Shown in pieces: positions 8,301 to 37,861 of a stretch of DNA of 38,320 nt. The notes under the pieces were generated by a model. The model saw only the letters and a program-made list of their open reading frames with translations, did no database searches and was not told where the DNA came from. This DNA comes from a virus. The position numbers and the translations under genes are program-made. Every line of letters begins with the position of its first letter. Position 1 is the stretch's first letter. The stretch covers positions 1-38,320 of the IMG/VR virus record IMGVR_UViG_3300047443_000092, one strand, 5' to 3'.

Positions 8301-10357
8301 TTGAGGTAGGAGACCGCCCGGTTGATCGGATTGAGGTCGTCGAAACCGAAGGTGTATATCCTTTGCAAAACATCGGATATCGTCCCGCCGAAGCCGCTTT
8401 TCTTCAGCTCCTTGGCGGCGGATTTGATCCAGCCATCCTTTTTAGCGGACACGATCGTCGATCGCACGGCAACCGAAGACGGCGCGGAAAGGAAGGCGTT
8501 CCAGGCGGCAGATGCCTCGTCGATCGCCTTTGCCATCTCCGGCGCCTTGGTCGTCAGGACCTGCTCGAAGTCGGCGGCCAGCGCCGGCATGTTCTTGCGC
8601 AGATAATCCCGGTTCGTCACCCAGAGGCGGAAGAATTCCGCGAAGCCCTCGAAATCACGGCCCTTGCTCGGATCGTAGTCCAGGGCTGAAAGCGCCTTCG
8701 AATTGGTCTTGATGAAGGCTTTGACATCGGGGACATGCGCATCGAGATGATGGCCATATTCATGGGTGAGCGTGTCGAAGTCGTCGAGCGATCGAACGCG
8801 CACGACGCTGTCTTTGGTGTCGAAGGTCCCGAGAACGCGTTTGCCGCCAGAAATCCGGCCCTGCCTGGTCGCGGTAATGTTCAATGCCTTGGCGAGCGCG
8901 TCGGCCGTCTCCCGCACACGCTCGATCCGTCCGGAGGCCGCTTGCGCCGGCGCAGCATTGGCAACGTTGCCCCTCGATCGCTGAGCGTTCAGGCCGGCGG
9001 TCGGCTGCGCCATCATGAAATCGCCAACCTGCTTTTCCGATTTTGTCCGGGTCGAACGGACAGTGTTAACGATTTCCAGATCCTCCGCCCGAGGCTTTCC
9101 AGCCTTCACCGCCTTCTTGAGGTCGCGGATTTCAGCCTGCCTCTCCTTAATGAGGCCGGGGCGCTCGTTTTCTGTGAAGCCGGCATGACCGAACTGATCG
9201 TAGTCAGCGTCAAAGCGTGAATGGCCTATGAAAGCGCCGCTTTTGCCGGTCGATGTTAAGACCGGAGATCCGTCAAAGCCGGTCTCGTCGGTCGGTTTCA
9301 GCGAACGCAGCTCCTTGAGCTCGATCTCCGCCGCGCGTAAGCGATCGCTTGTCGCGAGCATTGCCTCCGTTTCCGGAGATGCCACAGCTCTGAGGATACT
9401 TAATTCATCAGCAGGGATTTTTCCGCCGTCGAAATCGACAGCCGCCAGGCGTTCACGCGCGATATCCGGCGTGATCTCGGCCGCGGCTGCCGCCGGAGCG
9501 GGCTGCTCGAGTCCGCGTGCCTTTGCAGCTTCGGCGGAAAGGGTTTCTCCGATCGTCGGCGATGGCGGCGGCGCAGCCTGGTCGGCGATCGGCGCCGACG
9601 TTGCGGTCGGAGCATTTTCGGGCGCTGTCGTTTCCGGGCGAACGTTCGGCACTTCCTCCGGCGCCATGACGATCGGCGCCTGCGGATCCGGGGCAGGTTT
9701 GATCTGGGCGGCGACATCGACGGTATTAGCGATCGGCGCCGGTGCATTGTCGTCGAGCTCGTCGAATGGATTGAAAGAGGTGCGCTCTCCCGGTGCCGCG
9801 CGGACGCCACGGCCTTCACCGCCCAGCAGATCGCCGACAACCTTGCCGCCGGCGCCACCGAGGCCGCCGACGCCGAAGCCGAGCAGGACGCTAGCCGCAT
9901 ATTGCTCAGGATTAAATGTTTGCTGTGTGCCGCCGGTGATATTGATCCCCTGGATCGCCGCATCCGCGACGGCATTCGACGCGGCGCTATCGACGGCGCC
10001 GGAAAAGATCCTGGCCCATAGGCCAGTGACCCCTATTTTCCCCGCGACCAGGATTTTTTCGCCAAGGCCGACCGGCACGAAATTTTCAGGGCTGGCAGCG
10101 GTGCCGGCGATCTGGCCGGAAAGCGCCGCGCCGCCATCGAGGAGCCCCTGCCATGCCGGGAAGGAGTCATAGCGCCGCTCGAAGCGAGCGCGATCGTCCC
10201 GGCGCAGTGGAGATGAATTATCCTTGATCGCGCCGGCGATTGTGTTCTGTCGGTTACCCGCCTCGAAGTTGAGCTGAAAGCGCTCCCAGAGACCAGGCGC
10301 CGGCGCCGATTGGATGAAGGAGCCGTCGTCGTCCAGGTCGTCGAAGGGATTTGCCAT
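5354..10357 (-). CDS. Giant internal virion / DNA-ejection protein (1667 residues) with zincin motif
   Basis: Length and position, between a lysozyme-bearing virion protein and the tail spike, match the largest ejection protein of T7-like phages (gp16 counterpart). Residues 270-300 are low-complexity Pro/Ala. HEYGHH at 532-537, with a downstream EGFAEFF (Glu574), forms a plausible zinc-metallopeptidase site. The C-terminal third (roughly 1100-1500) has the look of LPD38-type large polyvalent phage proteins, with LVAGSVSLYALQ and W/F-rich segments that might insert in membranes. The motif NPFDDLDD at residues 3-10 recurs as NPFDELDD at 196-203. The start has GGAG six to seven bases upstream. 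The role inferred is ejection into the host envelope ahead of the DNA; peptidase activity is a prediction. Confidence 0.85.
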   Translation of the reverse strand: MANPFDDLDDDGSFIQSAPAPGLWERFQLNFEAGNRQNTIAGAIKDNSSPLRRDDRARFERRYDSFPAWQGLLDGGAALSGQIAGTAASPENFVPVGLGEKILVAGKIGVTGLWARIFSGAVDSAASNAVADAAIQGINITGGTQQTFNPEQYAASVLLGFGVGGLGGAGGKVVGDLLGGEGRGVRAAPGERTSFNPFDELDDNAPAPIANTVDVAAQIKPAPDPQAPIVMAPEEVPNVRPETTAPENAPTATSAPIADQAAPPPSPTIGETLSAEAAKARGLEQPAPAAAAAEITPDIARERLAAVDFDGGKIPADELSILRAVASPETEAMLATSDRLRAAEIELKELRSLKPTDETGFDGSPVLTSTGKSGAFIGHSRFDADYDQFGHAGFTENERPGLIKERQAEIRDLKKAVKAGKPRAEDLEIVNTVRSTRTKSEKQVGDFMMAQPTAGLNAQRSRGNVANAAPAQAASGRIERVRETADALAKALNITATRQGRISGGKRVLGTFDTKDSVVRVRSLDDFDTLTHEYGHHLDAHVPDVKAFIKTNSKALSALDYDPSKGRDFEGFAEFFRLWVTNRDYLRKNMPALAADFEQVLTTKAPEMAKAIDEASAAWNAFLSAPSSVAVRSTIVSAKKDGWIKSAAKELKKSGFGGTISDVLQRIYTFGFDDLNPINRAVSYLKDLHYENKGQHLELNTSGNPYKLARMSRGAYSAGHMDVMYGVAPYRGMHPESPSLRDAIVEATGKPNALSGWDEERVGQFGAYLWSRRAVGEWERYRAGDIPNPPDKLTEADHHANIAELEKEFPAFVSAADKAHEFSRALWKKKLDAGLIDQETYDRGLLIKDYVPGLRDFSTSEADMKITAQKHRGGSMKGGLVKRFKGSKRDVINPLESMAADAYETNMTIARNDVVKALHRLSLNAGPGSGAIAEIIPTKELRASMIDPLEAVETAARNAGLSVPDITVLRDAVESAVGSEKAAIFRPAMINEKGEPIVFFRDGGQLKALRLADGKFGQDMYKAITMMGRGEKNFWLDLVSIPARVLRAGITLSPEFIGANFVRDQFMATVLYGKPFRRVAATLQGATDDIIGSDVAKSYARMFGISGGAETASLSEAMAKRDLAALKRKGWFANRLTSFRGLLETAEIAETATRLGLFRTFKDEAKARGLSDYEATLEASWQARDYLDFDRRGSGMAALSRVIPFLNASLQGLDKASRHMIAPLARKMLGVAAGPEDTAAMALAVKTWARLGVLVAGSVSLYALQSQHEDYDEVSETTKATHWMVKDGEKWVAIPKPFEMAIAINLGEALFDSWAKKDPAAMGRWRDSIFLTVTPPSLIEGNPAIKSYFELKANKDLFTGAPIVPDQLQGLEPWLQYTARTSALSKQLGRIFNEPPVVIDHLITAHLGSWGRNALALYDLAQPDAPGFAWDDAPITRRFIKDASRGAQSVTMFWDMVGQREGTLEGKVKSWKAMMEAGDSAGAADYYATLEPIAKAYVAVSSLPADARRLHPMIRARGAVQAIGTVRREMAMGRLTDDDGNPLQISSAERTAADDVFSSLAMAMARNALKETGVAGWAQRTEIPEDGYYRELEAINPRLAERLGSAFAQNKVWTSDAVNETWPELRDRALADGSDTFAGDLVAQVQAGGLALDGEKRKKKPRPVLHP

Positions 10358-17561: not shown

Positions 17562-18404
17562 TCAGCGGCTGGGGAACAGGCGGTTGTAGCCTTCGTCGTA
17601 GCGCTTCCGCAGACTTTCGTCGAAACGCTGGTTGGGATCCTTATGATCGCGATTGCGCGGATCGATGCGCGGATCCGTATCGAGCTTCTTCAGGTCATCT
17701 GCGGTCATTGCACCTTCGCCTCCACCTTCGCCGCTGATGCGAATACCGTTTTCAGAAAGCCGGCCGGAGAGGGCACGCAACAAAACATTGCCCGCCGCCG
17801 TGTCGGTCATGGCGATCAGCATGGCGCCGACGTCGTTCTTTAGAGCCTCGGGAACATCCTTCAGCTGCGTCGTCAGGCCCTTGGCGAAAGTCTCGGCGGC
17901 AACAAGCGCCTCTTGAGCGCCGCGCTGGTCGAGGCCGGTGGCCGTCTGGAATGATTTAAGCTCGCCGGCCGGATCGAAGGGGCGCGCCAGAACACCTTGA
18001 TCGACAAGCGGCGAATATACGTCGGCGATGAAGCCGGAGAATTGGTCCTGACTGAGACCGTGTTTGTGAGCGGCAGCGCGGGCATGGTTGAATACTGGGC
18101 TCTTAGAGACATCACCGAAGTAGGGCTTCAGCTTATCGTCCGGCTCGAACTGGTAGAGATCCGGCTTTTCCGGTGCCGACGGCATCTTTGCGAGCTTGTC
18201 GCGCATGCCGCTAAAACGCGTATTGAGATCGGTGTAGCCGGCGACCATTTTGCCGAGCGTCTCGTCGGCATTTGAGCCCACGAACTCTGTCGGCAGACCT
18301 TGCGGCGCAGACCAGCCACCACCACCGTCTCCACCGCCGTTACCGCCATTGCCCAGGCCTTCACCCTCGAAAACCGGCCGAAGCCGGGCAAGAATATCCC
18401 TCAT
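17562..18404 (-). CDS. Scaffolding protein
   Basis: The 280-residue product has a flexible Gly-rich stretch near residues 17-30, an acidic and helical body (YTDLNTRFSGMRDKLAKMPSAPEKPDLYQFEPDDKLKPYFGDVSK) and a basic C-terminal tail (DPNQRFDESLRKRYDEGYNRLF). The gene lies between portal and capsid genes, as scaffold genes of T7-like phages do. The mix of a helical core and a basic, coat-interacting tail is typical. AAGGAAGG precedes the start by about eight bases. Confidence 0.82.
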   Translation of the reverse strand: MRDILARLRPVFEGEGLGNGGNGGGDGGGGWSAPQGLPTEFVGSNADETLGKMVAGYTDLNTRFSGMRDKLAKMPSAPEKPDLYQFEPDDKLKPYFGDVSKSPVFNHARAAAHKHGLSQDQFSGFIADVYSPLVDQGVLARPFDPAGELKSFQTATGLDQRGAQEALVAAETFAKGLTTQLKDVPEALKNDVGAMLIAMTDTAAGNVLLRALSGRLSENGIRISGEGGGEGAMTADDLKKLDTDPRIDPRNRDHKDPNQRFDESLRKRYDEGYNRLFPSR

Positions 18405-20597: not shown

Positions 20598-20970
20598 AGG
20601 TCCAGATCTCCCCTAAATCGCAGATCTTCACGAATTGAAAACCGCAGGCAACCGCGATCCGGCAACCTGCAGCAGTGGTGCAGATCACCGCGATTTCAGG
20701 GTAAGAGCGGGAAGCTAACGTCAACCGGATTTGGCGGATCAGCCAAAGCATATGATCTGCTCCGGCCGGAGCGATGTTGAACCAGGCTTCTGCGCCGTCT
20801 CCGCAGGGATAGAGGCCAAAAAGACCGAGAAGACGATCGCCGCGTCGCATCGCGAATGTCTCTCCACCAGACCACATTTCGCGGGCGACGGCCCAATGAA
20901 CCTGCGTCGTTGCCCCTCCAAGCTCGGCCATGTCGAAGACCGTCGCCGGCGTCTCGATCACCGGCTTCAT
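20491..20970 (-). CDS. GNAT-fold protein, T7 gp13-like internal protein by analogy
   Basis: The 159-residue protein has the order of secondary elements of a GNAT acetyltransferase (MRRGDRLLGLFGLYP, EAWFNIAPAGADHMLWLIRQIRLTL, EIAVICTTAAGCRIAVACGFQFV). The acetyl-CoA loop (Q/RxxGxG/A) is not convincing, so it may be catalytically inactive. T7 gp13 also has this fold and is needed for virion morphogenesis. The start overlaps the terminase stop as ATGA. The last 36 residues overlap another gene and are Gly/Ala/Pro-rich, as if recently extended. Confidence 0.7.
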   Translation of the reverse strand: MKPVIETPATVFDMAELGGATTQVHWAVAREMWSGGETFAMRRGDRLLGLFGLYPCGDGAEAWFNIAPAGADHMLWLIRQIRLTLASRSYPEIAVICTTAAGCRIAVACGFQFVKICDLGEIWTYGRFAGRLEQGREPAETAGGGATAPNVGEPSGATG

Positions 20971-22646
20971 CGCGCGCCTGCCTTGTGGGGATCGAAGCCG
21001 CCGCGACCTCCCCAGGGCGAGGATCGTTGTGTAGAAGCGTGGTGCCCGCGATCGTCGCGCGGATCCGCGCGGCCGGCTGCACCGCGAATAATGCCAGCTC
21101 GACCACGGAAGCCGCCTATCAAGTATTGTCCAGCATCCTGCAAGTCGGCCCAGGGGTGGGTTTTTTCCGGCTGCTCCTCGAATTCGGTTGAAGCCGTCTC
21201 CTTCCGCCGCTTAAAGCGATATTTTCCGTCGAAGCCTTCGAGCAGCAGCGGGCACTTCTCAGGGCATATCAAGAGCTCGCTGTTGGGCTCGTGATATCCT
21301 CGCAATTCAGTTTTAACCGCATCAAGTCGCATGCCCAGCTCGTTCGATCCGCCGAAAGGAAGCAGGATCGGTAGCTCGAGGATCATCGCAATGGTCTCAA
21401 GTGCGGTGAGCTGGCCGCCCTCTCGGTCGGCGCCGTACTCCGCAGCGGGGTCCGCCCATATCCGGATTTTGCGTGCGTTCGGATATTCCTGCTGAAGTTT
21501 CATCTTCAGGCCTTCGGCAAATCTGGCAGCCCCCACGCCGTGCCCCAGATAAAGCTCATTGATCAATTTGATCCGAGTGCTGACCTGGCCGAACACTGCG
21601 GCGGGGTTGAGGGTGTTCATCGATATGTCGATCCCGATCCCCAGCTCGAGGCGCGGGTCGAATTCTATGCGTTGTCTCGCCACATGGATGATGCGATTGA
21701 ATTTCTCAAAGACCGGCTTGCCGTGACGGGAATAGCCGAACTCATTGTCGACCATGCGCTTGATGAAGTGTTCTTCCTGGTTGCGCACGATACGGGCATA
21801 GTAATCCGGCTCGAGGTTGAATAGGTTTTCGGCCGCTTCCGATCGGCCGGAAGGTTGCCGGAAGAGATGTCGATCAGGCGAGATCTTCTTGACGAAATCC
21901 TTGTAGACCCAATTGTCGATCGTTGGCGCATTCAAGTCGCCGATAACCCTTCGCTGGCGCTGTCCGGAAACGATCGGCCGCCCGAGCTGCTTGCCGAGAT
22001 CCTCGAGCTCGGCGACCGAGAGCAGCAGCTTGGCCGAAGGATAGCGTCCGACACGCTGCTCGAGGTCGTCGAGTGCACCATCCGCATGCGTATCGGCTTC
22101 GTTGAGCCAGGCGCCGGAATATTCGCGCCCCTTCATCAAGGTCTCGATCGAGTTTTCGCCGAGCCCGGCGAATTCTGTCACGACCTCGACGCGGATCCCG
22201 TCGATCCCCATGAAGCGCAATGTATGCGTGACCGGGCGATCGTTGCCTCCGGCCCACTTCGAGCCTGGGAAACCCTTCGGAAACCACTGTTTCCAGCTCT
22301 CAAGAACCGTCTTTTCCGCCGATCGGAAGGTGTCGCGAAGAACAATCCAGCGGCACATGCGGGTGGGCTTGCCGTCTTCCGGATGTCTGGCGATAGGGGC
22401 AAAGGTGGCGGAGATGATCCGGAAGAAGGCGCAAAGCGTTGTCTTTCCCCCACCCAGCGGGCCCATGATGAAGGTCGTGAGACAGGTGGAATTGAGGAAT
22501 GATTGTCCAACCGGGCCGGGCGGTGTGTAATTGAACGGGTCGAAGTCTTCGGAGACCTCGAGCTGCAGGACGAGCTTCCGGACCTCCTCGTCGGTATAGA
22601 TCTTGATGTCGTCGCGGGAGACGATGTCGGAGAGATGCTGGGCCAT
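20967..22646 (-). CDS. terL: Terminase large subunit (packaging ATPase and nuclease)
   Basis: The product is 559 residues from the ATG at 22646; a GTG just before it at 22649 is possible. Walker A is GPLGGGKT (62-69), and the Walker B-like YSGAWLNEAD places Asn182-Glu183. The C-terminal nuclease domain has GIGIDISMNTLNPAA (Asp340) and IWADPAAEYGADREG as metal-binding acidic positions (Terminase_6C type). It cuts concatemers and pumps DNA through the portal. The start codon sits in the loop edge of a perfect 10-bp inverted repeat (22637-22659), which is unusual and may control expression. Confidence 0.93.
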   Translation of the reverse strand: MAQHLSDIVSRDDIKIYTDEEVRKLVLQLEVSEDFDPFNYTPPGPVGQSFLNSTCLTTFIMGPLGGGKTTLCAFFRIISATFAPIARHPEDGKPTRMCRWIVLRDTFRSAEKTVLESWKQWFPKGFPGSKWAGGNDRPVTHTLRFMGIDGIRVEVVTEFAGLGENSIETLMKGREYSGAWLNEADTHADGALDDLEQRVGRYPSAKLLLSVAELEDLGKQLGRPIVSGQRQRRVIGDLNAPTIDNWVYKDFVKKISPDRHLFRQPSGRSEAAENLFNLEPDYYARIVRNQEEHFIKRMVDNEFGYSRHGKPVFEKFNRIIHVARQRIEFDPRLELGIGIDISMNTLNPAAVFGQVSTRIKLINELYLGHGVGAARFAEGLKMKLQQEYPNARKIRIWADPAAEYGADREGGQLTALETIAMILELPILLPFGGSNELGMRLDAVKTELRGYHEPNSELLICPEKCPLLLEGFDGKYRFKRRKETASTEFEEQPEKTHPWADLQDAGQYLIGGFRGRAGIIRGAAGRADPRDDRGHHASTQRSSPWGGRGGFDPHKAGAR

Positions 22647-22659
22647 CACATGGCCCAGC
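22637..22659. promoter_or_regulatory. Perfect inverted repeat at the large terminase start codon
   Basis: GCTGGGCCAT (22637-22646) and ATGGCCCAGC (22650-22659) are exact complements with a three-base spacer. The terminase ATG lies in one arm. The structure could hide the start codon in mRNA or be a dyad DNA site for a protein. It lies at the border of the GC-rich interval to its right. Confidence 0.6.
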
Positions 22660-23746: not shown

Positions 23747-23988
23747 TGTCTAGTGACTGTCTACACACTGTCTAAGTAAAAATATTCAATGAAATCATAT
23801 ATATACATATGATTTTAGACAGTTAGACGATTAGACAGTGCGTATTCTCGTATGCATATGCGTGCCTGCACACTACGTGAGAGTTTTAGGTGTCTAAGTG
23901 TCTAACTGTCTAATGAGTGAAAATTACCGAATGAATTCAGTAACTTCCGAAGCCGTTGGCTCTAGACACTCATTAGACAGTCTAGACA
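23747..23988. repeat. Array of 12 TGTCTA iterons in four alternating triplets; candidate replication origin or control region
   Basis: Copies of TGTCTA start at 23747, 23758 and 23769 (forward, 11-bp period). Copies of the complement TAGACA (one reads TAGACG) start at 23816, 23824 and 23832 (8-bp period). Forward copies start at 23891, 23899 and 23907 (8-bp period), and complement copies at 23963, 23974 and 23983. Triplets two and three are joined by a perfect 14-bp inverted repeat (23815-23828/23900-23913), triplets three and four by a perfect 15-bp one (23905-23919/23967-23981). The order forms a large imperfect palindrome. Position after the primase and helicase genes suggests an origin; late-promoter operators are the alternative. 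Confidence 0.85.
23792..23815. promoter_or_regulatory. AT-rich palindrome inside the iteron array, possible unwinding element
   Basis: AAATCATAT (23792-23800) and ATATGATTT (23807-23815) are perfect 9-bp arms around a six-base AT-rich centre. It lies between the first and second iteron triplets, in the most AT-rich stretch of the window. Origins commonly place such a segment next to initiator repeats. Confidence 0.55.
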
Positions 23989-24142
23989 GACGACGCACAG
24001 CCAGCACACGCCATGCGTTACGCTACACCGGGGCAAAATCCGTCAACCGCGCTGTTTTCAGCACGCCAAAGGGTGGGGGTCCGGGATTTCCGCCGCAAAA
24101 ACACACAAATGGGCGGTCCTGTGCTGCCACAGGTTGCGGCGG

Positions 24143-26014
24143 CTATTTCGTGAGCCATTCCTTGTAGTCCTTAAGGTTGACGAACAGGCAGCGGCGCTGG
24201 ACGCCTGCGACGGTGACGCGATTGCCCATTTCACCGCCGGCGAGCATGATTTCCTTCATCACGATCTCCGGCGGTCCGCGCCGGAGCGCCCATTTCCAGC
24301 TGCCGTTGCCGGCGCGATCGCCGTATGGCGTGTTGATCAGCGCCGTGCCGAGGATCTGCGACTGATTGGGGATGACCAGGATGAGGCCGGTATCGATACT
24401 GCCCATCAGGCCGATGTCGATCGCGGCCAGCCGCTCCCGCGTGCCCGAGATCGAGACGTCCGGATCCATCTTGAGTTTCTGCAGCTCCTGGGCGACCGTC
24501 CGGCGCTGCCCGCCGGAATAATTGTCGATGATCGAGGTCAGGATCATGTCGAGGCATTTCTTCCACTCCGGCTCGACGCCCTCGAGTTCCGGCATCTTGT
24601 CCGGCGCCAGGCGCTCACCCCATACGCCGTAGCCGCCCTCGCTGCTCTCATGGGGTAGGCCGAGCGCCTCGAGGCCCTCCTGGCCGAGCATGGTATGTGC
24701 GACGGCGAGAAACGTGCCGAAGGTCTTCTGGCCACGGCTATCGTGGCCCGCTTCGCGCAGGATGGCGTAGTATTCCTCGAGCCGTTCCTTCAGGTCTTCC
24801 CATTTGTCCATCAGGACGCGCAGAAGGCGCGGCCCCACGGTCTCAGCCGCTTTCAGCACCGGCTTCTTGTTGCTGGTGGCCAGCAGCGGCAGCATTTCGA
24901 CGATGACCAGGCGCGTCAGGTTTGCCGGCGGGATCGGCGGCGGGTTGATGCCGGAAAAGCTGAAGGTGGACTGGGCTTCGAAATCGACGCCCTTGTGGTT
25001 CTGTCCGCCACGGATACGCACGGATCCGCTGGCAGCATCGCGTGCCATCTTGATGATCTTCTGCGCCTGCTCGCGGCCCTCGTCGCCCTCGAGCTCGTCG
25101 ATCGAGATTGGCAAGCTGTCGTGCCCGACGAGCTGATAGAGGCCGGCCTCGCTGGCGTTGGTCGTCGTCACCATCATGCGGCCGAGGATGGCGCGCAGCA
25201 GGCCATGCTTGCCGAAGAGCTCGGATTTACCCGTGCCGGCGTCGCCAACCGAGAAGATCGAGGGCCGCCATTCCAGCGCGCCGCCGAGCATGGCCACGCC
25301 AATCCAGCCGAGCAGGAACATGGCATCGATGTCGCCGCGGGCGAAATTCCAGGTGCGCAGCAGCTCGACGATGTGAATGGCCGGGTTGTCGGCCGGCAAT
25401 ACCGGCTCGCTCCAGGGCGCAAGCGACGGCGGCCGGCGAGGATAGATGAAATCCCCATGCTCGCCGGTCTCCTCGATCTTGCCGTCGAGCCAGAGATGAT
25501 CGCCGCAATGCAGGATGAGATTGCCCTCGAGGTCGCGCCAGGCGCCACGGCCGCGCACCAGGCTCGAGCTGCTCCAGGCGCCGCGCTCCCGGCAGGCGGC
25601 ATAGAGATCGCGGCGGATCCGCTCGCTCTTGAACGTCGGATCCGCAAACATCTTCTTCGGTTCCTTCGCCGGCCAGGCCCAATAGACGAAATCCTCATGG
25701 CCGGCGAAAAGCTTCTGGATCCGCTCGACGCCGAGGGCGCTGTCGCCGGTGTTGAACACCTGGCCCATCGTGTCGAGGAAATAGAAATTCTCGCCATCAT
25801 AGCCGAGCGGCTTCACGGGGCAGTCGGCCGGCAGATAGCCGGTCGCGTCCTGTTCTCCATGGACCTGCCACTCGCCAGGCTGCACCCCTTGCCACGGCCG
25901 GCCAGGCTTGGGATAGGTCGAGCGCCTGTCGCGCTCCTTCATCTTGATCCGGTTTTGCGCGCCGGCGATCAGCCCACGCGTTTTGCGGATCCCCTCGTCA
26001 TTATCGTCAGCCAT
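24143..26014 (-). CDS. Replicative helicase-like AAA/SF3-type ATPase
   Basis: The 623-residue product starts at the ATG at 26014 (a TTG lies one codon before). Walker A is GDAGTGKS (257-264), Walker B is LPISIDE (301-307), and a sensor/motif C-like FSFSGINPPP (351-360) precedes NLTRL, a likely arginine finger. This order is that of SF3-like and DUF927-like helicases of phages and satellites. The N-terminal 220 residues contain a YDGENFYFLDTMGQVF segment of unknown role. With the upstream Toprim protein it likely forms the primosome, and its gene ends next to the iteron array it might bind. The C-terminal part (GVQRRCLFVNLKDYKEW) is a candidate DNA-binding domain. Confidence 0.85.
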   Translation of the reverse strand: MADDNDEGIRKTRGLIAGAQNRIKMKERDRRSTYPKPGRPWQGVQPGEWQVHGEQDATGYLPADCPVKPLGYDGENFYFLDTMGQVFNTGDSALGVERIQKLFAGHEDFVYWAWPAKEPKKMFADPTFKSERIRRDLYAACRERGAWSSSSLVRGRGAWRDLEGNLILHCGDHLWLDGKIEETGEHGDFIYPRRPPSLAPWSEPVLPADNPAIHIVELLRTWNFARGDIDAMFLLGWIGVAMLGGALEWRPSIFSVGDAGTGKSELFGKHGLLRAILGRMMVTTTNASEAGLYQLVGHDSLPISIDELEGDEGREQAQKIIKMARDAASGSVRIRGGQNHKGVDFEAQSTFSFSGINPPPIPPANLTRLVIVEMLPLLATSNKKPVLKAAETVGPRLLRVLMDKWEDLKERLEEYYAILREAGHDSRGQKTFGTFLAVAHTMLGQEGLEALGLPHESSEGGYGVWGERLAPDKMPELEGVEPEWKKCLDMILTSIIDNYSGGQRRTVAQELQKLKMDPDVSISGTRERLAAIDIGLMGSIDTGLILVIPNQSQILGTALINTPYGDRAGNGSWKWALRRGPPEIVMKEIMLAGGEMGNRVTVAGVQRRCLFVNLKDYKEWLTK

Positions 26015-26035
26015 CAAAAATATTTTTCCCAGGAG

Positions 26036-26086: not shown

Positions 26087-27013
26087 TCAGTTCGGTGATT
26101 TGCTTTTCGACGGTTTCACAGCCGCCGGCTGATCATTATCTGCAGCGCCGTCGTCGCCAGCGGCGTCTTCCACCGGCGCCTCCAGCTCTGCAGCTTCGAT
26201 ATCCTGCGGCTGTACGGAAGCTGGTAACTCGGCCGCCAGCTCATCATGTCCGCTATCAGCGACCTCAGATATTTCGCCCTGTGCATCCGGATCCGCGCTC
26301 TCCGGATCGCCCTCGTCCTGTCCCTGGTCTGCAGCGTCTTGCGCATTCGTATCCTCCGGCAGTTGTCCGATGCTGATTGCCGGCGGCTTATCCGGCCCGC
26401 TGTGGGTGACCACATTTAAAGGCAGGCCGACGTCGTCGCCGGCTTCGTCCTCCTGGAGCTGCTCGAGCGCTTGTCGCCGGCGCTCGATTTCTGCCTCGAC
26501 CGCCGGCTGGTCGGCAAGGAACTGCCTGGCGTGCGGCTCCATGTAATCGAGCGGCTGCGTTCTCGCGAAAATGCTGTCCTCGAGCTTCAAGGGCACGCTG
26601 TCGAGCTTCGCCGCGATCCGCGCATCAGCGGCCGCCTTCTGGGTCCGGCTGATCTGCAGGTAGGCGTGCAGGGACACCGTGGCGAACATGTCGAAGGCCC
26701 ATTGCCTGGTGAGCGGCGCATCGACGAACTGCAGGCTCTCCGGCAGGTCCTCGACGACGATCCCGTCGATCCGTGCCTTCTGCCAGAGGCGGGCGCCGCC
26801 GGCATCACGCTCGGCGACATAATTGGCGAGCTCGTAGATCTTCTGCGACAGCTCTTCCTCTTCCGAGGGATCGCAGCCGATCCAGTCGCCGTCGAAAGCC
26901 TTGCTCCGGCCGCTCAGCACATAGAAGAGCTGACCCGCCGCCGCATGGCCGATCGAGGCCGCATATTCGAAGGGGTCGACCTCCATCAAGTCCAAAGTCT
27001 TTTCATCCGTCAT
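26087..27013 (-). CDS. Replication-module protein with long acidic C-terminal tail, unknown
   Basis: The product is 308 residues. The ATG at 27013 overlaps the Toprim-gene stop (TGATG), and GGAG lies nine bases upstream; an ATG at 27019 is less well spaced. Residues 1-185 are a mixed helical domain (EYAASIGHAAAGQLFYVLSGR, QWAFDMFATVSLHAYLQISRTQKAAADA). Residues about 190-300 are extremely acidic and low in complexity (Asp, Glu, Ala, Gln), ending in a short basic tip (KPSKSKSPN). Being between primase and helicase genes suggests a loader, single-strand DNA accessory factor or inhibitor; no family was recognised. Confidence 0.75.
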   Translation of the reverse strand: MTDEKTLDLMEVDPFEYAASIGHAAAGQLFYVLSGRSKAFDGDWIGCDPSEEEELSQKIYELANYVAERDAGGARLWQKARIDGIVVEDLPESLQFVDAPLTRQWAFDMFATVSLHAYLQISRTQKAAADARIAAKLDSVPLKLEDSIFARTQPLDYMEPHARQFLADQPAVEAEIERRRQALEQLQEDEAGDDVGLPLNVVTHSGPDKPPAISIGQLPEDTNAQDAADQGQDEGDPESADPDAQGEISEVADSGHDELAAELPASVQPQDIEAAELEAPVEDAAGDDGAADNDQPAAVKPSKSKSPN

Positions 27014-28089
27014 CACCATCCGCTCCTTATTGCGTCGTTGACGTCCTTCCCCCATTCGGCCGGCATCGAGACCACCTCGACGGGCTTCCTGAAGCTCTTC
27101 AGCCGCGCGATCGCGCGATCAAACTGTTGCTGTGCCTGGCGCTTGCCCCAATCATTGTCCTTGAAGACGATCCAGCCGGAGACGCAGGCATGATCCGGCA
27201 CCGATCCGAAGCCGCCGAGGCTGCCGGCCGACCACATGCGCAGCTCCGGAAAGGCGATGGCGGCCGAAAGCCCATCCTCGATGCCTTCGACCAGGCCGAC
27301 GAGGCCGGGCGTGCCCTGAGTGGCAGCATCTTCGGCCGACAGGCCGGAAGCGCCGTTCGTTAGCCGGATGACCAGGCCGCCCGTTTCCGGAAACATCAGC
27401 TTTGCCTTCGGCACGTCGGCCTTGTCGGATCCGTCCGGCTGCAGGAATGTGTAGTGGCAGGCGCCGATACGGCCGCCCTGATCGACCATGGCAGACACCA
27501 TCGCCGGCATGCGCGGCCGGCCGTCGAGCATCCAATATTCGCAGTCCGGACGGTATCGCAGCGATCGGCCGAGATGCTGGACGCGATCGAGCCCGGCATG
27601 GCGCGAGGCGAGATAGACGGCGGTGGGCGTGCCGGCGACATCCTCGCGGCAGGAATAGAAGAATTTGCGCGCGCGCGCGATCGAGCTCTCGCGCCGGTTC
27701 AGCTCTTTCGCTTCCGCCGCCTTGCGCCTGGCCGACGCTTCGGCTGCGAGCTGCTCGCGACGTGCCGGCGCCATATTGCGCAGCCCGTAGCGGTCCTCGA
27801 CCCATTCCACCGCCGCCATCCGGCTATCGTCGTTGACGTCGCCCGTCAGCCCGAAGGCGACCAGGTCGATCGCGTCCCCCTTGTCGCCGGAGACGAAATC
27901 CTTCCAGGCGCCGCGGCGGTTGTCGCGCAGCCAGACGACCATCTGCTCCGGCTTCGATTTCGGTCGATAGGGATTGGCGACGTTCCAGAGGCCGCCGCGC
28001 AGATGCTTGCGCGAGGCGCGCAGCAGCTGCTCGACGATAGCCTCGAGATCGTCCAGGACCTTTTCCTTGGCGACGGAGAAACGGCTCAT
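27013..28089 (-). CDS. Toprim-domain primase-like protein
   Basis: The product is 358 residues. The Toprim core is visible as LVGLVEGIEDGLSAAIAF (Glu268) followed by GWIVFKDNDWGKRQAQQQF (Asp311, Asp313), the acidic residues that bind metal. The N-terminal region (GGLWNVANPYRPKSKPEQMVVWLRDNRRGAWKDFVSGDKGDAIDLVAF) looks like the CHC2 zinc-binding module of phage primases, but the cysteine and histidine ligands are missing. It likely makes primers for, or otherwise supports, the downstream helicase. It may need host DnaG if the degenerate N-terminus cannot recognise templates. The start overlaps nothing upstream except the ATGA with the next gene. Confidence 0.85.
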   Translation of the reverse strand: MSRFSVAKEKVLDDLEAIVEQLLRASRKHLRGGLWNVANPYRPKSKPEQMVVWLRDNRRGAWKDFVSGDKGDAIDLVAFGLTGDVNDDSRMAAVEWVEDRYGLRNMAPARREQLAAEASARRKAAEAKELNRRESSIARARKFFYSCREDVAGTPTAVYLASRHAGLDRVQHLGRSLRYRPDCEYWMLDGRPRMPAMVSAMVDQGGRIGACHYTFLQPDGSDKADVPKAKLMFPETGGLVIRLTNGASGLSAEDAATQGTPGLVGLVEGIEDGLSAAIAFPELRMWSAGSLGGFGSVPDHACVSGWIVFKDNDWGKRQAQQQFDRAIARLKSFRKPVEVVSMPAEWGKDVNDAIRSGW

Positions 28090-30291: not shown

Positions 30292-30608
30292 CGGGCACTC
30301 TCCCGAGCCTGCTCCATCAGTACGGAGCGATAGCGGTGTTCGAGCTCGAGGAGCTCCGCCTTCGCGACACCTAGCGCTACCGGCCAGAGATCCGCCAGGC
30401 GCTGACTGATGATCTTCTCTAGGATCCCGGCCGCAATGTAGGCGCCATCCACGCTACCCGCGAAAACCGGCTCGACAGTAATTCGTGGCGGGTCGGAGCC
30501 AATCACATCGGCATGTTGCTCGATCCAGGCAATTGCCTTCGCCAAGTGATCAGCTTGATGGCCGTCGGCACGCATGGTGTCGGCCATGTTCCGCAGAGGG
30601 TGCGTCAT
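30288..30608 (-). CDS. Small early protein, unknown
   Basis: The 106-residue protein is mostly helical (RADGHQADHLAKAIAWIEQHADVIG; KAELLELEHRYRSVLMEQARE). Both ends overlap neighbouring genes by four bases. I see no metal site, membrane segment or HTH. Confidence 0.68.
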   Translation of the reverse strand: MTHPLRNMADTMRADGHQADHLAKAIAWIEQHADVIGSDPPRITVEPVFAGSVDGAYIAAGILEKIISQRLADLWPVALGVAKAELLELEHRYRSVLMEQARESAR

Positions 30609-31408
30609 GCCCTGGCTCCAATCTGAATATGATTGAGCTGCAGGCCCTTGTTGTAGATCTCGACAAGAGCCTTGGAGAGCGCCAGTGCTGCATCGCCCCC
30701 CCCCATTTTGCGGAGCGCTTCGGCGTTGGCGATCAGGATCTTGCGATCCTTCGAGCGCAGTTTCAGCACAAGGCGCTCGACATCCATGGTCTTGTTGTTG
30801 CGATAGAGGCGGGCAAGCGCCTGGATCGTCACGCCGTTGAGCGCGCCGTTGTCTTTGGGCCAGGAGGCGAGCAGCGTCATGCAGGCCCGCGTGACGGCGA
30901 AATCGCCATAGGTGCGGATCGCCCGCTCGATCGCCGTCACCGCGCTGGTGCGGTTTGGTGCGCCGGATTTCGTGCCAGGTGGAACCACCTCACAACCGGC
31001 CTCCTCGAGGACGGCGCAGATCCGCATCATCGTCTCGTCGCCGGCCTCGAGACCGGCCCAGTATTTCTCGACGGTGGAGATCGACGAGCGGTTGACGTTG
31101 ACGCCCAGGAAGCTTTGCGCTTCCTCGAAGGCCTGCCTGAGCACGACGATCGCGACGGGAACCTCGTCGATCCCGGGATGGCGCTTGGCCGCCTCGAGGC
31201 GGTGCTGGCCGTCATAGACGGTATAGGAACCGTCGCCCTGGTCGACGAGCATCAGGGAGCCGAACTGCGCCCAGGTGAAATCGCGCAGGATCTGCAGCAC
31301 GCGCCGCTCCTTGAGCGGCCGCTGATAGCTGTCGTCGACGCGGATCAGATCCTTGCTCAACCATTCCAGTCTCGGCCGTTCGCCGATCTGCATATTGACG
31401 CCTTGCAT
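30605..31408 (-). CDS. ParB/Srx-fold nuclease- or partition-like protein
   Basis: The product is 267 residues. The N-terminal part matches the ParB/sulfiredoxin-like fold: LIRVDDSYQRPLKERRVLQIL, then QFGSLMLVDQGDGSYTVYDGQHRLEAAKR, whose DGQHRLEA corresponds to the nucleotide-binding GxHRxxA box. The C-terminal 150 residues are helical without an obvious HTH. There is no ParA gene nearby, so plasmid-like partition is unlikely; phage ParB-like proteins are often nucleases, CTPase-like regulators or DNA-modification helpers. A nine-base G tract (plus strand C at 30696-30704) lies in the coding region. Confidence 0.8.
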   Translation of the reverse strand: MQGVNMQIGERPRLEWLSKDLIRVDDSYQRPLKERRVLQILRDFTWAQFGSLMLVDQGDGSYTVYDGQHRLEAAKRHPGIDEVPVAIVVLRQAFEEAQSFLGVNVNRSSISTVEKYWAGLEAGDETMMRICAVLEEAGCEVVPPGTKSGAPNRTSAVTAIERAIRTYGDFAVTRACMTLLASWPKDNGALNGVTIQALARLYRNNKTMDVERLVLKLRSKDRKILIANAEALRKMGGGDAALALSKALVEIYNKGLQLNHIQIGARA

Positions 31409-37812: not shown

Positions 37813-37861
37813 TGACTTTTAATCAGTAGGTCTCGGGTTCGAACCCCGACGCTCTCACCAA
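37813..37861. repeat. attR core, displaced 3' tRNA-Lys fragment
   Basis: This is the second copy of the 49-bp repeat. It lacks the 5' half of a tRNA: upstream bases (CAACCAACGA) do not pair as an acceptor or D arm. It is therefore a pseudo-tRNA end, left by integration, and not a second tRNA gene. A short GCCTTT/AAAGGC dyad follows and may be the original tRNA terminator. Confidence 0.95.

Follow-up and report, generated by a model that had tools for sequence, protein, structure and literature searches.

The alpha protein of P4 fuses primase and helicase, and P4 uses two separated sites, ori and crr. Short repeated sites also occur just before or at small-terminase genes: lambda has cosB just before Nu1, and the pac site of P1 consists of hexamer clusters on both sides of the cut. 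PICIs carry two iteron sets that flank an AT-rich region, a layout said to be shared by no other known bacterial replicon (PMC6092414). In SCCmec, Cch2 forms hexamers and dodecamers, and its C-terminal domain binds repeats located downstream of its own gene (PMC7581432). The iterons of PLE RepA are selected to change by an origin-cutting nuclease, the Odn of ICP1 (PMC8263062).

We analysed a virus record of 38,320 bases (the window, i.e. the whole stretch of DNA), which reads as a prophage and has relatives in Rhizobiales. It carries an array of short hexamers between a helicase gene and a gene for a small-terminase-like (TerS-like) protein. We propose, with a probability of roughly two in three, that this array is the replication origin of the prophage and is recognised by its own SF3/D5-like helicase. 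The original prediction had already favoured an origin bound by an initiator, and this still seems the best reading of the array. If it is true, an origin layout described as exclusive to PICI satellites has a doubled counterpart in complete temperate phages of a widespread family, which would supply about twenty or more matched pairs of initiator and site on one fixed geometry. One could then test how two hexamers of an SF3 initiator come together on DNA, and how initiator and site change in concert and still function.

The array resembles the Rep-ori of SaPI/PICI elements (SaPIbov1, SaPI5, EcCICFT073) in several respects. Both have an SF3/D5-like helicase as known or proposed initiator and short iterons, which in the window come after the helicase gene but in relatives can be several kb from it, both have iteron sets flanking an AT-rich stretch, and in both the specificity is expected to reside in the C-terminal domain of the helicase (PMC7581432, PMC6092414). 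However, SaPI/PICI origins have two iteron sets, whereas the window has four triplets arranged in a dyad, of which triplets 3 and 4 do flank an AT-rich spacer. The window also has a purine-pyrimidine central tract, its array keeps to the terS-like gene, and it belongs not to a satellite but to a full phage that encodes a portal, head and tail proteins and a terminase of its own. The arrays may well work like SaPI/PICI rep-ori, but they are not members by definition, because they have four triplets, belong to a whole phage and are tied to terS. SCCmec Cch (5dgk) is the best Foldseek match of the window helicase. The putative origin of SCCmec Cch2, made of AAGTG direct repeats, differs in having three iterons only and a different primase, and SCCmec is not a virus. 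These two systems are closer to the window than P4, which had been put forward as the nearest analogy (PMC7581432, PMC6092414). The window shares with P4 a phage-type initiator helicase with short iterons, but its Toprim primase and helicase are separate genes and it has a single array: when we looked in the window for a second site of the P4 type, we found one high-scoring array only. The position of the array recalls lambda cosB and P1 pac, but here the specificity tracks the helicase and not the TerS-like protein. Finally, iterons change in PLE, under selection, as they do here, but PLE has a RepA_N initiator and three repeats of ~30 bp, unrelated in sequence to the window arrays. An origin-cutting nuclease is one possible cause of the hexamer turnover described below; none of this kind has been found here.

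Prophage and gene neighbourhood

The window contains a 49-bp direct repeat (79-127 and 37813-37861) that corresponds to the 3' part of a tRNA-Lys gene. A stretch of 48 bp within this repeat also occurs, without mismatch, beside the integrase of Rhizobium phage RHph_TM3_3_14B. Because of this location and this recurrence, the repeats are very likely attachment sites; two otherwise different phages therefore share an integration site. The 48-bp match was first taken for iterons, and is actually the att core at 37813-37860.

The genes on the minus strand are ordered as follows: Toprim primase, a 322-aa protein, the 624-aa helicase, the array, the 196-aa TerS-like protein, a 167-aa protein, the terminase large subunit (TerL), portal, capsid, and T7-like tail and internal virion proteins (Table 1). 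The name TerS-like is tentative: it rests on the place of the gene and its recurrence just before TerL, not on a known family. PDB sequence-profile searches with the helicase, the primase and the 322-aa protein gave no match. We considered the 322-aa protein as the binder of the array and dropped it. Only 27 of 50 array phages, mainly those with TGTCTA-type arrays, have a detectable copy, so it is unlikely to be a general array binder.

Table 1. Coordinates of the array components and neighbouring genes in the window.
Feature	Positions	Strand	Remarks
Terminase large subunit	20967..22649	-	BcepC6B TerL relative
TerS-like protein, 196 aa	23146..23736	-	GRPKGSxNKxT motif; start codon ~11 bp from array
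Triplet 4 (outer)	23747..23774	+	TGTCTA at 23747, 23758, 23769; 11-bp period
Spacer 3, candidate DNA-unwinding element	23775..23815	.	41 bp, AT 0.85; 12-bp inverted repeat AAATCATATATA/TACATATGATTT
Triplet 3 (inner)	23816..23837	-	TAGACA at 23816, 23832; variant CGTCTA (minus strand) at 23824; 8-bp period
Central spacer at dyad	23838..23890	.	53 bp; alternating purine-pyrimidine run of 17 (at most 37 in relatives); Z-DNA-prone by sequence
Triplet 2 (inner)	23891..23912	+	TGTCTA at 23891, 23899, 23907; 8-bp period
Spacer 1	23913..23962	.	50 bp, AT 0.58
Triplet 1 (outer, gene orientation)	23963..23988	-	TGTCTA at 23983, 23974, 23963; spacing 9 + 11 bp; place and phase kept in relatives
Promoter-like box, by eye only	24018..24048	-	conserved GGTTGAC(N)nTGTAGCGTAA, ~60 bp upstream of array
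SF3/D5-like helicase, proposed initiator	24143..26017	-	Walker A GDAGTGKS
322-aa protein between primase and helicase	26087..27055	-	conserved first half (LKLEDSIFEPHGSL), long acidic low-complexity tail
Toprim primase	27013..28089	-	DUF7146 + Toprim_3
ParB-like protein	30605-31408		

A dyad of twelve hexamers

The array spans 242 bp (23747-23988) in the intergenic gap between the 624-aa and 196-aa open reading frames, both on the minus strand, and is non-coding as predicted. Twelve TGTCTA iterons had been announced; eleven are exact copies of TGTCTA/TAGACA at the expected places, and the twelfth has one mismatch. Their order, three forward, three reverse, three forward and three reverse, makes four alternating triplets and agrees with the original prediction. 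The helical phasing it described applies to the outer triplets, whose period of ~11 bp is near helical phase, but not to the inner ones (8 bp). Likewise, the 15-bp inverted repeat is perfect, but the 14-bp one, also thought to be perfect, matches at 13 of 14 positions. The whole forms an imperfect dyad, in line with the large imperfect palindrome that had been described.

The hexamer TGTCTA is found 14 times in the whole window where 3.8 are expected, a number reached by none of 100 shuffles, and the array is not due to chance, because it is conserved in relatives. GC skew was uninformative: its sign does not switch at the array, which, if anything, speaks against an origin. With the array as query, direct searches of phage and plasmid DNA gave no relevant match.

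The geometry is conserved across many hexamers

We retrieved 13 relatives by their primase. All 13 have repeats at the corresponding position. In most of them 10-12 copies are exact and follow the order seen in the window, and the two most distant (L014 and L015) carry shifted versions of TGTCTA. A gut phage whose helicase and primase are only ~31% and ~32% identical to those of the window has a syntenic array built of GGTTCT/AGAACC. We then collected relatives of the helicase from genomes and viral contigs, including two large scans from which 80 of 154 and 80 of 166 matches were kept. Most loci were thus fetched by helicase similarity, and the co-occurrence of array and helicase is biased for this reason.

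To describe the arrays we used a layout finder that presupposes no word and counted as distinct those with a score of at least 8. Among the matches listed, the layout is present in 66 distinct genomes. The inner sites are spaced by 8 bp (153 intervals) or 9 bp (67 intervals) in 220 of 222 cases, with two exceptions, and the outer sites mostly by 11-12 bp; the three spacers have medians of 39, 52 and 38.5 bp. Scores of at least 6 were obtained in none of 218 shuffled regions and in 5 of 184 control stretches (10.0, 8.9, 8.3, 6.6 and 6.6). These five scores equal those of real displaced arrays in L146, L165, L093, L142 and L143, so the control has no unexplained match. Such an origin had been called unusual for a phage with a T7-like virion. 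In this family the array is not unusual: it is present in most members that encode both the helicase and the TerS-like protein.

The spacers are also conserved in composition. The alternating purine-pyrimidine run of the central spacer has a median of 17 in the 66 arrays, against 6.2 after shuffling (p < 0.01 in 47 of 66). Spacer 3 has a median AT content of 0.67, compared with 0.34 in the genome upstream, and is AT-richer than spacer 1 in 60 of 66 arrays. This makes the layout asymmetric, in that only one spacer, beside an inner triplet, is a candidate for melting.

The hexamer itself is variable. About 20 or more versions occur, mostly with a GT core. They include TGTCTA, TGTCCC, TGTCTC, TGCCTA, TGTCTT, TGTTCC, CGTTCC, CGTCTC, CGTTGG, GGTAAC and GGTTAG, as well as GGTTCT, GGTTCC, CCTTCC, CGTGAG, GGTGGT, CGTAAG, CGTTAG, TGTCGC, GGTTTC, CGTAGC and CGTTGC. 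Divergent repeats in related prophages had been set as a result that would refute the prediction. The outcome was one that had not been foreseen: the letters of the hexamer diverge while the geometry is constant. The comparison suggests that the geometry was conserved while the recognition hexamer changed some twenty times or more.

Position and specificity of the array

The array lies at a median of 25 bp upstream of the TerS-like start, and within ~105 bp in 63 of 64 cases. Its distance to the helicase gene ranges from 18 bp to ~4 kb across relatives (in the window it is 158 bp downstream), and when the helicase gene is displaced the array stays beside the TerS-like gene. This tie counts against an origin, which has no obvious need of such a position. 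Because the array nearly always adjoins the terS-like gene, also in phages whose helicase gene lies several kilobases off, a packaging site or a late operator keeps some probability. Three records lack part of the gene set. No array was detected in L243 and L267, which have the helicase and TerL but no TerS-like gene. L301, the only TerS-positive helicase-negative record, encodes TerS and TerL, but neither a helicase (within 20 kb) nor an array was found in it; upstream of position 9725 it has a few GTGTCTC/GTGTTCC words that could be array remains. Only in L268 (7994-8151; GGGAAC, score 7.0) was an array found that is close to the helicase and yet 1.15 kb from the TerS-like gene.

A packaging initiation site (cos/pac) would have the terminase bind the repeats upstream of its small-subunit gene and cut near the dyad centre. 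In addition to the position, which holds in nearly all phages, the dyad symmetry of the array fits this explanation, as do two short metagenome contigs with TGTCTA arrays that end inside the central spacer. These ends, 57 bp (L037) and 9 bp (L067) before the inner triplet, may be virion ends or assembly breaks at the palindrome. However, contig breaks at palindromes are common assembly artefacts, and near-full-length contigs do not end at the array, though many of them are prophages. Moreover, the AT-rich spacer suits melting better than cutting.

The motif also argues against packaging. In a multiple regression on distances among 70 phages, a comparison of related sequences that is not a proof, motif distance depended on the helicase (beta 0.81; none of 500 permutations was as large) and weakly on TerL (0.29). 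The coefficient of the primase was -0.19 and that of TerS -0.14 (permutation p 0.95), the distances of the latter being noisy because the protein is short. An earlier, smaller distance analysis agrees. Co-variation of the sites with TerS, as for cos/pac, is thus not observed once the helicase is considered. In the 145 pairs where the helicase is close and TerS is far, the motif difference is 0.10, against 0.50 for all TerS-far pairs. For example, L088 and L103 have a TerS-like protein very different from that of the window, but a close helicase and an unchanged TGTCTA, and L151 and L091 share their motif despite very different TerS. These results suggest that motif divergence tracks the helicase and not the TerS-like protein or the primase. 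A packaging site is in our opinion unlikely; it would be an unusually elaborate cos/pac element, with a specificity that oddly tracks the helicase. The array may also serve packaging with the help of the helicase.

Late transcription offers another explanation, which we regard as quite unlikely: a phage protein, possibly the helicase or a regulator, would bind the repeats, which lie in the terminase operon leader, and thereby switch late transcription, a role that could coexist with that of an origin. The array does mark the boundary of early and late genes and immediately precedes the TerS-like gene, and 27 of 66 array phages, which correspond to the TGTCTA clade, have a GGTTGAC...TGTAGCG box ~60 bp upstream of it. 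Yet, the box is missing in the other 39, and a consensus promoter scanner found no sigma-70 site. The twelve phased sites, together with the AT-rich spacer and the purine-pyrimidine centre, exceed the needs of an operator, and the motif tracks the helicase and not a known transcription factor. A role as a partition (or centromere-like) site, or as a structured element of the late leader RNA, is very improbable: the palindromic layout and the ParB-like protein would fit, but the prophage is integrated, no ParB-like homologue was detected in several array phages, the array region has no match in Rfam, and its centre folds as single-stranded DNA no better than shuffles.

In summary, the position of the array argues for packaging or late control and its specificity argues for the helicase. 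The two are most simply united if an origin occupies the early/late border and at the same time adjoins the terminase operon.

The helicase as putative initiator

The product of 24143-26014 had been named, together with that of 27013-28089, as one to test for binding to the array, and it is our favoured candidate given its fold and the motif divergence that tracks it. Its AF2 model (mean pLDDT 78) matches in Foldseek SCCmec Cch, SaPIbov1 Rep, the C-terminal region of NrS-1, poxvirus D5/E5 and ASFV PrimPol (structures 8tch, 6k9c and D5 in addition to 5dgk), which places it by fold in the SF3/D5-like group. The C-terminal domain (~485-623) is modelled as a helix-strand-helix-helix-strand-strand unit and a hairpin with Q606, and the last 139 residues modelled alone reach a pLDDT of 92. 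We read this domain as winged-helix-like. The Foldseek comparison of its model with solved structures gave no significant relative (best E 0.17), so it is a putative DNA-binding domain.

Under the origin reading, the C-terminal domain of the helicase would bind the twelve hexamers, perhaps with one site for each subunit. The two convergent triplets of a half-array, six sites in all, would gather one helicase hexamer, so that a double hexamer would form on the whole array. The strands would first open in the AT-rich spacer 3 beside the inner triplet, perhaps with help from the alternating purine-pyrimidine tract at the centre, and the Toprim primase would prime after opening. The assembly of the helicase would fix the geometry, while hexamer and helicase would drift together and give lineage-specific origin specificity. 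It is possible, but rather doubtful as a whole, that the twelve phased sites seat the twelve subunits of an SF3 double hexamer, that the hexamer was rewritten about twenty times or more with the C-terminal domain, and that coexisting prophages hold separate replication specificities.

One residue of this domain, 606 in window numbering, reads like a code in two of three clades, those of TGTCTA and GGTTCT. Here Q is paired with T at base 5 of the motif (all but one case), K/R with C (nearly all cases) and E with G (two cases). A Martelella alba prophage, for instance, has TGTCCC and R606. L084 (TGTCCC) differs at only 2 of the 160 helicase positions invariant in the TGTCTA set, and Q606 is one of them. 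The link with base 5 ranks first among helicase columns in the pairwise analysis and second of 1452 columns in the branch-wise one; a TerL column scores like Q606 in the cross-protein control, in which descent was not removed. We rejected a general residue-to-base code at this position and keep it only as a lead, because it is confounded by descent and the third clade does not obey.

Similar repeats in other contexts

Some TGTCTA arrays contain further repeats. The array region of L049 and L060 has ATTATCCAA/TTGGATAATT repeats interleaved with the TGTCTA sites, and in L019, L040 and L058 several copies of the palindrome ACACACTAGCGGGTAGTGTG lie around these sites.

TGTCTA triplets are also present near TerL in phages unrelated to that of the window, which encode PolA, an SNF2-type helicase and a different primase-helicase. 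We found in these phages no detectable relative of the window helicase, of its C-terminal domain or of the primase. Either the same hexamer was reached twice, or there is a shared binder missing from the present picture. Nine loci with other replication genes (L018, L019, L020, L024, L039, L047, L052, L058 and L062) have TGTCTA triplets with the same inner layout, i.e. reverse pair, spacer and forward triplet. Finally, Synechococcus phage S-H1 (L272) has three copies of AACGGT spaced by 10 bp (17725-17755), ~40 bp past a distant helicase relative and more than 1 kb from the terminase, which are possibly a simple form of the same origin.
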